Below are positions 53,100 to 59,632 of a DNA stretch of 64,000 nucleotides, in pieces. Position 1 is the stretch's first letter; each line of letters opens with the position of its first letter. The notes under the pieces were generated by a model. That model ran no database searches. It saw only the letters and a list, made by a program, of their open reading frames with translations, and was not told where the DNA came from. Source of the DNA: Candidatus Gastranaerophilales bacterium (GTDB lineage: Bacteria; Cyanobacteriota; Vampirovibrionia; Gastranaerophilales; Gastranaerophilaceae). A program made the position numbers and the translations under genes. The DNA is taken from assembly GCA_947589115.1 (NCBI GenBank), contig CANPZP010000001.1:1-64000 (forward strand). Direction: 5' to 3'.

Positions 53100-53774
53100 A
53101 TGGCAAAGGATTTAGAAGAAAATTTAGTAAAATTATTCAGTTCAAATCGTTTGAATTCTTATAAATATGACAATAATGATACCTATTCTATTGTTCTTGA
53201 AAGATATTTATACAATATTGAGTTATCAAAATCTTTGTATCCTTTATTATCTTTTCTTGAAATATCTTTGCGTAATAGAATAAATCAAGCTATTGAAACA
53301 GTTATACAACAGGACTGGTTATTGAAAGAACATAATCAACAGAATATTTTGTTTCCAAATGAATATAAGAAATTACTTGAAGCTAAACAAAAACTTATGA
53401 ATAAAGGACATAAAAATATCGGTAAGGATGATTTAATAGCTGAATTATCATTGGGCTTTTGGATTCATCTGTGTACAAAAAAATATAAAACAGTACTGTG
53501 GCATAAGCCGTGTTTTTTTAGGATAGTATTTGCCGATTATCCCAACTTTTCAGAATTTGATAAACTTAGTAAAATATTTCCTATCTTGCAGCTTATGCTG
53601 AAATTAAGAAACAGAGTATTTCACCACGAAATAATTATAAATCATCCTTATGGAATATATAATTGCTATATGGATTTAAGAAAGCTTTTAAGCTATATAT
53701 CTAAGGATAGTATACAGTACCTTGATAAGATTTGCGACTTCAAAGAAGTTATAACAAAGCAAAAACCTCAGTAA
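53100..53774 (+). CDS. Abi-like HEPN protein, candidate abortive-infection RNase
   Basis: 224 aa, matches the Abi-like (AbiD/AbiF, PF07751) family. Seen: LSFLEISLRNRINQAI near 51-65, ELSLGFWIHLC at 115-125 and LKLRNRVFHHE at 168-177 where R170 and H175 form the RxxxxH HEPN motif of ribonucleases that cut RNA. In phage defence such proteins shut down infected cells, and some act alone, as would be the case here. No SD; it appears leaderless. It follows tRNA-Leu, a frequent site for mobile insertion, but no integrase is present. Confidence 0.8.
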   Translation: MAKDLEENLVKLFSSNRLNSYKYDNNDTYSIVLERYLYNIELSKSLYPLLSFLEISLRNRINQAIETVIQQDWLLKEHNQQNILFPNEYKKLLEAKQKLMNKGHKNIGKDDLIAELSLGFWIHLCTKKYKTVLWHKPCFFRIVFADYPNFSEFDKLSKIFPILQLMLKLRNRVFHHEIIINHPYGIYNCYMDLRKLLSYISKDSIQYLDKICDFKEVITKQKPQ

Positions 53775-54096: not shown

Positions 54097-55752
54097 ATGA
54101 ATAATATATCTAAAAAATTACAGAGATATAGAATATTTTTTTGTTATTTATATTTTGCAACAGCAATAATATTTTATATATTAATCAAATTTGTCACGCA
54201 ATATACGTGGCTGACCTCCGGTGAAATGTGGGCAGAATCAGTAAATTATTATTATAACTCCATCTCAGGTTCATTTTACAAAATATTATTTTCTACAGAT
54301 TTTGTTTATTGGGCATTCTTTCAAAGAATAATTGCTTATTTAGGGGTATTATTCAGAATACCCGTTGAATATATACCATATTATTATAATGCTTGTGCAT
54401 TAATATTTCCGGGATTATTCGTTGCACCGTTCTGCCTTCCTCTGTTCAGAAGAATTATTCCCAATGATATTTTCAGATTTATAATATGTATTTCATTATT
54501 ATGTCTTAGTGATTTTGAAACTTCCGCTTTTATTAGTTTTACGTATTATTCAATATTTTTTATTACTATAGTATCCATTCTTGCATTTGTGAAAGGAAAA
54601 TATAGTGATATACCTGCCTGGAGCTGGGTTATACCAATACTTATTATTAACAAACCTTCCCATCTTATTCTCATTCCGTTAATGATACTTTTTGCTTTCT
54701 ACTCAAATAAAAGATTTAAACATATAACTGCTGTTTCATGCGTATTGGCTGCTGCACAAGTTGTAAGAATACTATTAAGCATGGAATCTTTACATAAAAA
54801 TAGTAATTTGAGTTTATTCGAAAAATGCTACTATGGTTTGATTGAATTTTTTAAAAATTTACCGTTAATGTTAACCGGAGATTTATATCATCTGCACACA
54901 GTAGAAGAATATATAATTACAGGCTCTATAATCTTTATTGTTATAAGCATAATTATCTACGTATTATACAAAAAATCCAATAAAAAATCGTTTGGACTAT
55001 GCTTTTCCGGTATATGGTTAACCTTATGTAATATAATAATGTTATGGATTTCTCAATACGGAGAATACGAGAATAAACTAATTTTGCATATGACCAGATA
55101 TATGTTTGTTGACTTAATGGGATTCATGTTAGTTTTAATAGGCATATGTGCAGTTATAGAAAAAAAATATAAGAATTTAGGAATGATTATTTATGTAGTA
55201 TGGTTTGTATTTTCAGGCTGGTTAATAACCGGAATTAAAAACAGCATAACACCTGTATTTCCCCATTTCGGTAATTCAAAATGGCAAAAATTAAAAGATG
55301 CATTAAAGTATGACAATCGATACAGATATTGTATTCCTATTGACCCTGATATGTGGGCTTATGAAAAAGATAAATGTATAATAATTAATCAATTTTACAA
55401 TATATCTCCATCAAATGAATTTATTGATGCCGATAACAGGAAATATAAAGTAAAATTGGAAAAATTAAATACTCTAAAATTAAGTTATTTTCTAATTGTT
55501 TTACATCCCATAGAGGATAACAATATAACAGGAAAAGCATTTTTAACATATAAAAACGGTGAAACTGCAGAAATAGAATCGACTGAAAAAATAAACAGTT
55601 ATATAGGAACAATGATTTTTCAAGTACCTGATAAAGATGAAATAATAGATTCCATCAGTTTTCAATTTGATAAACCGGTAAAAATTTATATAAATAAAGA
55701 AATAAAATTCCCCGTCTCAAAATGGTTAGGTGTAAGTAAAGAAATAAATTAA
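54097..55752 (+). CDS. Polytopic membrane protein, GT-C-like, unknown function
   Basis: 551 aa. Seen: about eleven hydrophobic helices from residue 12 to about 390, an acidic DFET and SGEMWAESVNYYYN in the first loop, then a C-terminal soluble beta-rich domain (about 400-551, ending VKIYINKEIKFPVSKW). This form is like GT-C glycosyltransferases or polysaccharide membrane proteins, but no DxD catalytic motif is convincing. No SD. Convergent with the AlgI-like gene (4-nt overlap). By context it may make or modify the same polymer. Confidence 0.62.
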   Translation: MNNISKKLQRYRIFFCYLYFATAIIFYILIKFVTQYTWLTSGEMWAESVNYYYNSISGSFYKILFSTDFVYWAFFQRIIAYLGVLFRIPVEYIPYYYNACALIFPGLFVAPFCLPLFRRIIPNDIFRFIICISLLCLSDFETSAFISFTYYSIFFITIVSILAFVKGKYSDIPAWSWVIPILIINKPSHLILIPLMILFAFYSNKRFKHITAVSCVLAAAQVVRILLSMESLHKNSNLSLFEKCYYGLIEFFKNLPLMLTGDLYHLHTVEEYIITGSIIFIVISIIIYVLYKKSNKKSFGLCFSGIWLTLCNIIMLWISQYGEYENKLILHMTRYMFVDLMGFMLVLIGICAVIEKKYKNLGMIIYVVWFVFSGWLITGIKNSITPVFPHFGNSKWQKLKDALKYDNRYRYCIPIDPDMWAYEKDKCIIINQFYNISPSNEFIDADNRKYKVKLEKLNTLKLSYFLIVLHPIEDNNITGKAFLTYKNGETAEIESTEKINSYIGTMIFQVPDKDEIIDSISFQFDKPVKIYINKEIKFPVSKWLGVSKEIN

Positions 55753-57158
55753 AATCTGAAATAAATAAACGGATTATAAGTATCAGATGCTATTGCCGAA
55801 GCGGACAAGAAAAATAATAAAATAAGCCAAATATTTATTAATATTTTTGTATATTTATTTTTTACCTCTAATATATTTTTGAATACAGGCATGCAGCATA
55901 TTATTGAAGCAATAAATATTATTAATCCCCAGTTATTAACATAATAAGATAATGAATATAAAAATTCTTTTTCGTTAAGCGTTAATAAACCAAACATATT
56001 CATTAAATATTTAAAGGCATAATCAATATTATAAGCCCTAAAAATAACCCATCCGATAATAAAAATAAATATGCAATATATATGTCTGATTAGGTTTACC
56101 CATAAAGAATGTTTTTTTAAATCAAACTCTTTAATATTAAATATTTTTTCAATAATAATAAAAATGCCATGCCAGATACCCCATAAAACAAAAGTCCATT
56201 TAGCTCCGTGCCAAAAACCGGTAAGAATAAAAACGAAACCAAGATTTCTGACAGTTGTTAACATACCGTTTTTATTTCCTCCGAGAGGAATATATACATA
56301 GCGTTTGAACCAGGTAGATAACGATATATGCCACCTGTGCCAAAATTCGGTAACAGATTTTGAAATATACGGATAATTGAAATTTTCCATAAATCTAAAA
56401 CCGAAAATCAAACCTAAACCTATAGCCATATCGGAATATCCGGAGAAATCAAAATAAAGCTGAAAAGTGTAAGCAAATGAACCAATCCAAGCTACTAAAT
56501 GAGAAAAATTATGAGGATTTTGAATAAAAATCTTATCGGCTATTAGTCCCATGGTATTTGCTATGAGCATTTTTTTGGACAGTCCGATAATAAATCTTTT
56601 AACTCCCAAACAAACTTTATCAAAATTAACTTCTCTGGAATCAATTTGTTCTGATATATCATGATATTTAACAATCGGCCCCGCTATAAGCTGCGGAAAT
56701 AAACATATATATAGCGCTAACTTATATATATCTCTTTGCGCTTTTACTTCTCCTCTATAAACGTCAATTACATATGAAATTGCCTGAAAAGTATAAAAAG
56801 ATATTCCAAGCGGCATTATTATAAATAATGTATCTATTTGTAAATTAAATATATTATTTAAATTATCAATTAAGAAATTAAAATATTTAAAATATATTAA
56901 AAAGCTTAAATTCCCGATAATTATAAAAAATAAATATATTTTTTTGAAATCGGGTTTATTTTCAATCAATAAAGCACCGCAATAATTAATCAAAATCGTA
57001 ATGAGCATTATAGAAAGATATTTAGGCTCTCCCCAAGCATAAAATAATATACTTGCCGCCAAAAGTATAGGATTATGAAGTTCTTTTTTTGTAATTAAAT
57101 ATAATAAAAGTACAATCGGTAAAAATATAAAAACAAATGTCATTGAACTAAAAAGCAT
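55749..57158 (-). CDS. MBOAT O-acyltransferase, AlgI-like
   Basis: Integral membrane protein that passes acyl groups (usually acetyl) across the inner membrane for polysaccharide O-acetylation. 469 aa. Seen: FYAWGEPKYLSIML, MPLGISFYTFQAISYVIDVYRGE, FPQLIAGPIVKYHDI, YTFQLYFDFSGYSDMAIG, SVTEFWHRWHISLSTWF and GFWHGAKWTFVLWGIWHG, with the catalytic His in the last. Starts 3 nt after the AlgJ-like gene. Confidence 0.93.
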   Translation of the reverse strand: MLFSSMTFVFIFLPIVLLLYLITKKELHNPILLAASILFYAWGEPKYLSIMLITILINYCGALLIENKPDFKKIYLFFIIIGNLSFLIYFKYFNFLIDNLNNIFNLQIDTLFIIMPLGISFYTFQAISYVIDVYRGEVKAQRDIYKLALYICLFPQLIAGPIVKYHDISEQIDSREVNFDKVCLGVKRFIIGLSKKMLIANTMGLIADKIFIQNPHNFSHLVAWIGSFAYTFQLYFDFSGYSDMAIGLGLIFGFRFMENFNYPYISKSVTEFWHRWHISLSTWFKRYVYIPLGGNKNGMLTTVRNLGFVFILTGFWHGAKWTFVLWGIWHGIFIIIEKIFNIKEFDLKKHSLWVNLIRHIYCIFIFIIGWVIFRAYNIDYAFKYLMNMFGLLTLNEKEFLYSLSYYVNNWGLIIFIASIICCMPVFKNILEVKNKYTKILINIWLILLFFLSASAIASDTYNPFIYFRF

Positions 57159-57161
57159 TTA

Positions 57162-58898
57162 TTACTCCATATTAAACAAATTATGTAATTCTAAAAAATT
57201 ATTATATGTAATGCAAAAAATTATAATATCAGGCTTATAATTCAATATTTCATCTTTATAGTATTTTATTATTTTAAATTCATCTTCCTGTTTAATCCCA
57301 ATAACAGTATTATTTCTCAGTCTTTTAACATTTTTAAAAGTAAAAGGAATAAACTCGGTCAAATTTTCATTTTGACTTGTACCAAGTTGAATAACCCTGT
57401 AGTCAGAACCTTTGGGGTAGTAATACAATTTATTAAAATGATATTTTATATATGTAAGAGTTTGATGCAGATTTTTAAAATCCTTATGAGTGTAATATCT
57501 GTATTTTGTTTTGTGATATTTTTTCATACCAATTAAATTTATATATGAACAACTTTGACCGTAATCATAAGTCCTGAAAACATCCCCTCGCACTAAAGTA
57601 TTATAAGAAAAATTATAATCGGATTCATTCAATATATGAATATCGGAAAAATCTTTAACTATTCTGTTCATTAAGGCTTTGTATCCGATAAAAGCAGCGT
57701 CATCCGTCCAATGATGTTCGGTTTTGAAAAACATAAATTCTTTTTCTGCCCCGTTTTTTAACTCATCATAAGGATATATTATATTAACCTCTCCTTCTGA
57801 ATCTTTATTCTTTAAATATTGCATAAATTTATTATGGTTTGAGGATTTGTTAATATAAAATTTATCGGTATTATATATTTCAACTTTTTTGGGAACAATC
57901 AACACATACAACTTTATTCCGTGGTTATTACAAAATAAATTAAATTTTTTTAATTCTTCATAATTTTTATCTAAATCATTAATATTATATGTATCAAATT
58001 CTGTTAAAGTATATAAAAAACCTGTATTTTTATCATACAAACCTTTATCATTCATGTTTGCAAAATAAAAATATAAAGAATTATATATTTTGATTAATAT
58101 ATCTCTTAAAAAAAATCTGTCACTAAACCATTTATCAAAATTTCTTCCGAAATAAAAATTTATTTCATCTTGATTCGTAATAAAAGGTTTCAATTTGGCA
58201 AGCATTCTGTTTTCCCTGTATGACATTTCACTTTTATCTATATGCAGCATGGGGACAAGCAGAAAAATAAAAAATATAATCAGAAATATTAAATCAGTCT
58301 TTGATTTTCCTTTAATTGTATTGAAATCCGCCGCATAATTCGACAATTTATATGCAAGCAAATACGTTAAAATAACTATTATAATAAACAATTTATAATC
58401 AAAATTTATGTTTGAATAAAGGTTTAATTTGTTATTAAAGGTTATATAAATAATATTATTTAAAGGTTTAAGAACTAATTCATTATTGTTATTTAATACT
58501 TTAGCACCGACTACTTCCGTATTATCAAAATTTTTTATTACATATTCACCGTTTTTTAAGTTTACATTTTTCACCGTTACAGGAAATTCATTCTGAATAT
58601 CCTTTAAAACCAATCTTATTCTTTTGGGGAATTTAGCACCATGAATTTGGAAATTAAAATTTGATGATTTATTTAAATTTATTTCTTTAGTTTCACTTCT
58701 TGTTTTTTTAAATTTATTATCATCTTTTTTATTTAACTGAACTTCAACAGAGCATTTGCCTTTTCCTTCCATATCAATATCAACAGGCATAGAAGAAAAT
58801 TTTAACCAGTATTTATTTGTAAAAAATATAACTGCAATTGTAATTACTATTGAAATAATATTTCTCTTTTTAATTCCGCATAAAGCCTTCAAACTCAT
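57162..58898 (-). CDS. AlgJ/AlgX-like SGNH-type O-acetyltransferase
   Basis: Periplasmic-side partner of the MBOAT protein that moves acetyl to polymer. 578 aa. Seen: N-terminal helix at about 15-28, helices at about 168-187 and 203-218, then a soluble domain with FDKWFSDRFFLRD and EHHWTDDAAF at 394-403 (the HHW Asp/His family signature, DHHW). The first 165 residues form an additional region between helices, larger than in typical AlgJ. Start has no good SD; a 20-bp inverted repeat begins 25 bp upstream. With AlgI it forms an acetylation pair. Confidence 0.82.
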   Translation of the reverse strand: MSLKALCGIKKRNIISIVITIAVIFFTNKYWLKFSSMPVDIDMEGKGKCSVEVQLNKKDDNKFKKTRSETKEINLNKSSNFNFQIHGAKFPKRIRLVLKDIQNEFPVTVKNVNLKNGEYVIKNFDNTEVVGAKVLNNNNELVLKPLNNIIYITFNNKLNLYSNINFDYKLFIIIVILTYLLAYKLSNYAADFNTIKGKSKTDLIFLIIFFIFLLVPMLHIDKSEMSYRENRMLAKLKPFITNQDEINFYFGRNFDKWFSDRFFLRDILIKIYNSLYFYFANMNDKGLYDKNTGFLYTLTEFDTYNINDLDKNYEELKKFNLFCNNHGIKLYVLIVPKKVEIYNTDKFYINKSSNHNKFMQYLKNKDSEGEVNIIYPYDELKNGAEKEFMFFKTEHHWTDDAAFIGYKALMNRIVKDFSDIHILNESDYNFSYNTLVRGDVFRTYDYGQSCSYINLIGMKKYHKTKYRYYTHKDFKNLHQTLTYIKYHFNKLYYYPKGSDYRVIQLGTSQNENLTEFIPFTFKNVKRLRNNTVIGIKQEDEFKIIKYYKDEILNYKPDIIIFCITYNNFLELHNLFNME

Positions 58899-58922: not shown

Positions 58923-59071
58923 TATCTATAATGGTGAATAAAGTCTTGAATGCCTATATTTATTAATATTTTGAAAAAAAGAAAAAATGAAAAATATGTT
59001 TTTTAATACAAATTTTTTCAGGAATATTTATGTTATTATTAAGTTATAAAATTTATTCACCATTATAGATA
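58923..59071. repeat. Perfect 20-bp inverted repeat flanking 109 bp
   Basis: TATCTATAATGGTGAATAAA (58923-58942) is exactly complementary to 59052-59071. The 109-bp interior is AT-rich with a TATAAA near 59045. It lies directly upstream of the AlgJ-like gene. Confidence 0.9.
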
Positions 59072-59107
59072 AAATGGCGCAAATAAAAAAATATAATAAT
59101 TAAAAAA

Positions 59108-59632
59108 TTAAAGTTTTTTATTATCGTTTTCGTCATCTTGCAGTTCTTTAGAAATAAGGACTTTAAGAACTCTTGAACCGATGTAAAGCCCGGCACCTAT
59201 GGCAATAACTGCACCTACAGTACTTAAATAAGAAAGTCCGATAGCGCAGCCTAAAGCCGCAGCAATAACTCCGATTTTAAAAGAAGTATCAGCTTCATCC
59301 TTTAATTCGGCTTCTCTTCTTGCTAATTCGGTATTATCAGGTTTTGCCTGTTTTACCAAAATATCCTGTGTCATATTATTCATTGACGAAAATGAAGGCG
59401 CTTTTACGGTAACATTTTGCTCAAAAAATTTAGGAGTCAAAGACTCTAATTTAGCAACTTTACTTTTAACGTCATACAAATCCTGCTGCAGCCTTCCGTC
59501 AAGTTGAACACGGTTATTATTTCTTCTGTCTGAACCGCTTCTTCTGTCAACGGCAACTGGAATATTCTGCTGACGTCTGTCTTTCGCTCCTGAATATTGC
59601 GGATATAGCTTTGATATTTTGCTTAAATACAA
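59108..59632 (-). CDS. DRR-motif membrane protein, unknown function
   Basis: 174 aa, starts at TTG with AAGG 7 nt upstream since no ATG fits. Seen: basic motif DRRSGSDRRNNNR at about residues 29-41, as in small PilZ-associated or response-regulator-linked linkers; a charged helical stretch (DVKSKVAKLE, ELARREAELKDEA); and a C-terminal Gly/Ala-rich transmembrane hairpin (VIAAALGCAIGLSYL, GAVIAIGAGLYIGSRV). Cytosolic tail ends acidic. No family named. Not clearly in one operon with the AlgJ gene, since the inverted repeat lies between. Confidence 0.6.
   Translation of the reverse strand: MYLSKISKLYPQYSGAKDRRQQNIPVAVDRRSGSDRRNNNRVQLDGRLQQDLYDVKSKVAKLESLTPKFFEQNVTVKAPSFSSMNNMTQDILVKQAKPDNTELARREAELKDEADTSFKIGVIAAALGCAIGLSYLSTVGAVIAIGAGLYIGSRVLKVLISKELQDDENDNKKL

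Follow-up and report, generated by a model that had tools for sequence, protein, structure and literature searches.

A probable phase-variable promoter switch upstream of AlgJ/AlgI-like genes, bounded by sites of a recombinase-linked family, in a Gastranaerophilales genome

Several described systems stand close to the locus reported here. The fimS element of Escherichia coli has 9-bp arms, a segment of about 314 bp and adjacent recombinases, and in the Mpi and Tsr systems of Bacteroides capsule promoters, Mpi is a serine recombinase. In Clostridioides difficile, one recombinase, RecV, is required to invert multiple invertible sequences across the genome, and its switches can act after transcription start in a Rho-dependent manner (PMC7446863). 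The gut invertons found with PhaseFinder and PhaseFinderDC present inverted repeats of 10-40 nt, tyrosine-type invertases nearby and surface functions, and Cyanobacteria are unmentioned in that paper (PMC11892184). A study of pneumococcal O-acetylation, in which hsdS inversions are controlled by acetylation (PMC12324116), was discarded as a precedent for the present arrangement, since acetylation is there the controlling step. Searches of the literature on Gastranaerophilales and Melainabacteria returned nothing relevant on phase variation or on invertible elements, and the site motif characterized below was not found described; switches of this kind are known, and for the site family no description seems to exist in the literature searched.

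The window, as the whole analysed stretch of 64,000 nucleotides is called here, lies on contig C1 of a 1.82-Mb genome of Candidatus Gastranaerophilales bacterium (G000); relatives are congeners labelled G001 etc., and the fetched sequence stretches carry L numbers (L129, L154, etc.). The arm TATCTATAATGGTGAATAAA at 58923-58942 of the plus strand recurs as its reverse complement at 59052-59071 of the minus strand, with 20 of 20 positions matching and 109 bp between, and the pair starts 25 bp upstream of an AlgJ/AlgI-like gene pair (Table 1). A previous sequence-only reading had reported this perfect repeat upstream of AlgJ/AlgI genes; its coordinates were exact, and the open reading frames lie where it placed them and are assigned by Pfam to ALGX and MBOAT, but the true unit proved to be larger. 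The similarity between the arms runs on outward to form two 32-bp sites, identical at 27 of 32 positions, each of which is an imperfect dyad, and their outer half-sites are unlike each other (TTTGCATCA / TTTGCGCCA).

Table 1. Features of the predicted switch and its neighbouring genes (positions in the window)
Feature	Position	Strand	Basis or remark
AlgI-like MBOAT O-acyltransferase gene, second in presumed operon	55749..57158	-	ORF; Pfam MBOAT 2.4e-31
AlgJ/AlgX-like SGNH protein gene, first in presumed operon	57162..58898	-	ORF; Pfam ALGX 3.5e-10
Putative left recombination site, 32 bp, TTTGCATCAAAATATCTATAATGGTGAATAAA	58911..58942	+	Inner 20 bp are the reported left arm; second-best match of the foreign-site profile (read on the - strand)
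Putative invertible segment, 109 bp	58943..59051	.	Inner length of 109-110 bp shared with six further family pairs
Predicted extended -10 element TGtTATTAT, within TTTATGTTATTAT (59027-59039)	59031..59039	+	Recurring motif, ending 12 bp inward from the right site
Putative right recombination site, 32 bp, TTTGCGCCATTTTATCTATAATGGTGAATAAA on the - strand	59052..59083	-	Inner 20 bp are the reported right arm; best profile match, 26.6 bits
Conserved gene on the far side of the switch, convergent with the predicted promoter as assembled	59108..59632	-	Adjoins an M16 peptidase gene genus-wide

The inverted repeat taken by itself is unusual, yet not beyond chance at the scale of a whole genome, because its arm-pair score was equalled in 1 of 100 Markov shuffles of the whole window and, when the 209-bp intergenic region alone was shuffled, in 3 of 20,000. 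Beyond the pair, no further copy of the 20-mer arm was found in the 1.82-Mb genome, the sole additional match carrying 3 mismatches, and when 3 mismatches were allowed in the relatives the level of matches was near that of the reversed control. The arm was absent from viral contigs, and exact matches in other genome contigs amounted to two single sites, one in a Prevotella bin and one in a Nitrosarchaeum contig. The segment used as a DNA query in 40-41 congeners gave only weak AT-rich matches and no copies. A miniature transposon (MITE) or other decayed transposon with terminal inverted repeats of 20 to 32 bp, the alternative named by the sequence-only reading, would share the form of a short AT-rich segment within inverted repeats, but the genome holds no copies of the arm beyond this pair, dispersed copies of the segment are missing from the congeners, the sequence flanking 58911 and 59083 shows no target-site duplication, and each arm has internal dyad symmetry and fits the recombinase-linked sites; this explanation was rejected as hardly credible.

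All recombinases of the genome lie outside the window. The sequence-only reading had seen no recombinase gene nearby, which is true of the window, and had suggested searching the genome for serine and tyrosine recombinases; eight of the tyrosine type and two of the serine type were found elsewhere. Five of the eight Phage_integrase-family genes encode just 180-193 aa. The scanned part of this genome came to 324 kb, made up of the window and a further 260 kb of other stretches; there, the clean inverted repeats that rival the window pair in strength adjoin short recombinases (C23:880/1036; C23:16416/17040, a perfect 26-bp repeat with the recombinase inside; C10:57/223; C31:15632/15880), and the window pair is the one strong pair that lacks an adjoining recombinase; C17 and C41 hold, respectively, a pair of lower score and a dispersed repeat, neither of which looks like the strong pairs. 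Three of these loci (C23:880-1063, C10:57-243 and C31:15632-15904) are inverted-repeat switches by short tyrosine recombinases with a different type of site. The recombinase-enclosing repeat at C23:16416-17065 (L136, L129) is placed between two divergently oriented glycosyltransferase genes and resembles the Hin segment in carrying its own recombinase, and similar switches occur in G029, G027, G011 and G001 (L165, L205, L219 and L209). A reverse-transcriptase-like protein with a YVDD motif, encoded near a short tyrosine recombinase of C10 (L131:1815-2705), could belong to a retron-like or other reverse-transcriptase system.

Relatives of the short recombinases were present in 30 of the 41 genomes of the genus, and inverted repeats were found beside 20 of 48 recombinases versus 4 of 124 control pieces (Fisher p = 1.2e-9), mostly just 3′ of the recombinase gene, the detection threshold used yielding a repeat for only those 20 of the 48. 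In G008, two AlgJ-AlgI operons directly follow a recombinase gene, from which the repeat separates them, and on both contigs (C263 and C252) a site of the same family as those of the window sits between the recombinase gene and AlgJ-AlgI. These G008 sites, AATACACCATTTTATCTATTTTGGTGTATAAG and AATGCACCATTTTATCTATTTTGGTGTAAAAG, resemble the right site of the window, TTTGCGCCATTTTATCTATAATGGTGAATAAA, and G008 and window sites alike are imperfect dyads in which CACC...GGTG half-sites surround a TTTATCTAT core. A site profile built solely from seven sites of other genomes, with the window sites excluded, was scanned over 646,522 positions in 324 kb of the own genome, and it ranked the right site of the window first (26.6 bits) and the left site second (20.7 bits), followed by a site belonging to the C23 recombinase (19.3 bits). 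A chance repeat in AT-rich intergenic DNA might be argued from the whole-window shuffles and from the fact that the window was selected for oddities, but the local shuffles reached the score in only 3 of 20,000 cases and such an origin would leave both the match to foreign recombinase sites and the 109-bp spacing unexplained; contradicted by the profile ranking, it was rejected as extremely improbable.

A pattern search of the whole own genome revealed one more matching pair, at C30:17073/17216, and none in the reversed control. A related pattern matched in 9 of 41 genomes of the genus, with a control of 0; this pattern was partly designed from the same sites and the count is no independent test, its independent outcomes being the new pairs, namely the one on C30 of the own genome and three in G034. 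The C30 pair (C30:17071-17244; L257:5071-5244) has 110 bp between its sites and no nearby recombinase. The G034 pairs, on contigs C137, C18 and C41 (L265, L273 and L275), had no recombinase on the fetched stretch, and in their vicinity are an operon for an epimerase and a glycosyltransferase, a gene of the MBOAT family and a further glycosyltransferase gene. Pairs devoid of a recombinase are, in these four cases, a recurring pattern. The inner segment measures 109 or 110 bp in seven pairs (window, own C30, G034 C137, C18 and C41, and G008 C252 and C263), and an eighth pair, in G032, has an inner segment of about 111 bp in a less good register. The window segment aligned with that of G040 in the same orientation, to a degree equalled by 1 of 1000 shuffles, and its similarity to the G008 or C30 segments was not above shuffles. 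In G007, a site is placed directly upstream of AlgJ and the contig stops inside the segment. Contigs G007 C46 and G009 C41 and C117 (L259, L261 and L268) stop inside or just past the segment adjoining a family site, as would be expected if both orientations were present in the population.

The orientation of the window locus is known from one assembly of the species, and the paralogous switches of G008 provided a comparison within the site family. The two AlgJ promoter segments of G008, taken with their sites, aligned better inverted (110) than forward (57), while the AlgJ sides of the same two operons aligned forward (132 versus 34); for the inner segments alone the values were 53 inverted and 22 forward, equalled by 1 of 1000 shuffles. 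In a second paralogous pair of G008 (L154/L201), the recombinase end and the first arm were likewise forward and the segment inverted. The comparisons of L163 with L164 and of L165 with L205 showed the same orientation, and in L219/L209 the flanks do not align. Since the G008 paralogous segments align inverted between forward flanks, paralogous switches of the site family exist in both orientations; the inverted G008 pair could in principle represent an old fixed inversion instead of ongoing switching.

These comparisons also bear on the reading of the dyads as regulatory or transcription signals that act without recombination, be it as intrinsic terminator of the gene at 59108, as paired operators bound by a regulator or, through the TATAAT of the right site, as a fixed AlgJ promoter. 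Indeed, TATAAT is present in both arms, and the right site is scored as a hairpin resembling a terminator, with 7 pairs and a weak T tract (1 versus 0.0 expected). Foreign sites of the family, however, are devoid of TATAAT, paralogous segments occur in opposite orientations, and the same dyads form inverted pairs at fixed spacing beside recombinases. The terminator was set aside, and signals of this kind are very unlikely to account for the sites as a whole.

With regard to the promoter, the sequence-only reading had seen a TATAAA within the segment and no clear full promoter; the latter remark stood, while the key element is predicted to be the TGtTATTAT of Table 1. The corresponding motif, TTTRTGNTATNAT, an extended -10 box, was detected with at most one mismatch in 13 of 25 segments versus 1.7 expected, and its four exact occurrences in 324 kb of the own genome are all intergenic, two of them being in the window segment and the C31 switch. 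A -10 ending at the same 12-bp offset and pointing away from the target was observed in the own C30, G034 C41 and G008 C252 pairs; in G008 C263, as read from the printed sequence, the -10 at this offset points toward AlgJ. The C30 segment carries a promoter-like element, TTGACA-17-TAAAAT, which is directed away from the large secreted repeat-protein gene there and predicts an OFF state. Because a clear -35 is missing from the window element and a simple scan for promoters returned fewer promoter-like sites than in shuffles, the promoter activity of the segment is put forward as a prediction. The window -10 points away from AlgJ, from which the assembled orientation is predicted to be OFF.

As to the enzyme, the own genome holds one intact clade-A recombinase, at C41:10920-11483, beside which no repeat pair resembling an invertible segment was found. 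In a tree of 56 recombinases this protein groups with those of G014, G032, G034 and G008 C263 (support 95/81), and the wider group that holds it also takes in those of G008 C252 and G040 (86/90); a separate group (97/89), with sites of the ACATTTT...TTTTGT kind, is formed by the remaining short recombinases of the genome. The C41 protein preserves all catalytic residues (R41, K65, H135, R138, H161 and Y170). Against the NCBIfam models of tyrosine-type DNA invertases it reached 1.8e-16 and 60.3 bits, below the cut-off of 222, and by this cut-off it is not a member of those families, although it would work in the manner of such an invertase. Its locus, valS followed by a 124-aa gene and the recombinase, is similar to that of G034, where valS and a 125-aa gene are followed by AlgJ, AlgI and the recombinase. 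The simplest history suggested by this arrangement, with no direction of move implied, would be that operon and recombinase became separated and the switch was kept with the operon. Clade, neighbourhood and elimination make it likely that the C41 recombinase flips the window segment.

The comparative evidence, that is, matching sites linked to recombinases, spacing of 109-110 bp, G008 paralogues in opposite orientations and an intact clade-A recombinase, favours the invertible-promoter reading, and the window element is very probably a phase-variable inverton flipped by a recombinase. In the proposed mechanism, the two 32-bp sites, belonging to the family of a FimB-sized tyrosine recombinase, would bound a 109-bp promoter-carrying segment that recombination between them flips. 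In the assembled state the promoter would face away from the AlgJ-AlgI operon (OFF); in the inverted state the -10 box would be placed at 58955-58960 of the minus strand and transcription would start ~50 nt upstream of the AlgJ ATG (ON). The C41 recombinase would act in trans on both the window and C30 switches.

A frozen or decaying inverton, with genuine relic sites that no longer flip after AlgJ-AlgI moved off from the recombinase and with the operon locked OFF or otherwise driven, is unlikely but finds some support in the absence of a recombinase from the window contig, in the new location of AlgJ-AlgI relative to relatives and in the differing outer half-sites, from which the window pair could be partly decayed. 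Nevertheless, the inner 20 bp of the sites are identical, the site family, spacing and promoter offset are retained, the genome keeps an intact clade-A recombinase together with a second recombinase-less pair, and the three recombinase-less pairs of G034 have well-kept sites.

In characterised systems, AlgJ-like and AlgI-like proteins O-acetylate exopolysaccharides, and by analogy the window AlgJ-AlgI pair may O-acetylate a surface polymer; its AlgI is 74% identical to that of G034. The M16 peptidase gene and the gene at 59108 were found together in 29 of 29 fetched loci of other genomes, with AlgJ-AlgI beside them only in the window. The C30 switch is located upstream of an ORF of >1000 aa whose product begins much like a signal peptide and contains repeats rich in Asn and Gly. 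Similar Abi-like proteins are encoded near AlgI in the window (53100-53774) and beside a clade-A recombinase in G040 C119 (L183:3095-3775).

Such a switch would bring to this lineage, in which the literature searched describes no phase-variable promoters, a family of them that is defined by its 32-bp site, constant spacing and recombinase clade, and, if the mechanism is true, one recombinase sets the state of both the O-acetylation operon and a large surface protein. Moreover, the site profile can find switches remote from their recombinase, which would be missed by a search of gene neighbourhoods. It is somewhat probable that this uncultured gut-type lineage has a regulon of invertible promoters, fixed in length at 109-110 bp, for which a single FimB-sized recombinase serves in trans as master switch; surface O-acetylation and a large secreted protein would then be controlled together, and operons would relocate with their switch.

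Compared with the known systems, the locus resembles E. coli fimS in its short segment within inverted repeats, with a predicted promoter, and in the presumed surface trait downstream, and FimB and FimE are, like the enzymes considered here, short tyrosine recombinases (about 180-200 aa) without an N-terminal domain; it differs from fimS in its 32-bp dyad sites, its 109-bp segment and the lack of an adjoining recombinase. RecV offers the parallel of a single enzyme serving several distant switches, as proposed for C41 with C1 and C30, in another organism and with other sites, and the window switch is predicted to work by a movable promoter. The gut invertons of PhaseFinder are similar in repeat size range, tyrosine-type invertases and surface functions. 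The likeness to Bacteroides drawn by the sequence-only reading holds for the form, since the Mpi and Tsr capsule promoters are invertible promoters upstream of surface-polymer genes, but nothing Bacteroides-specific was found: the window element has its kin in its own genus, namely tyrosine recombinases of FimB size, with unrelated sites. The locus would represent a device of an ordinary kind, met where it was not expected and in an uncommon arrangement, as an invertible promoter of a new site family that has no recombinase beside it, and we hold with considerable confidence that it is a recombinase-flipped switch.
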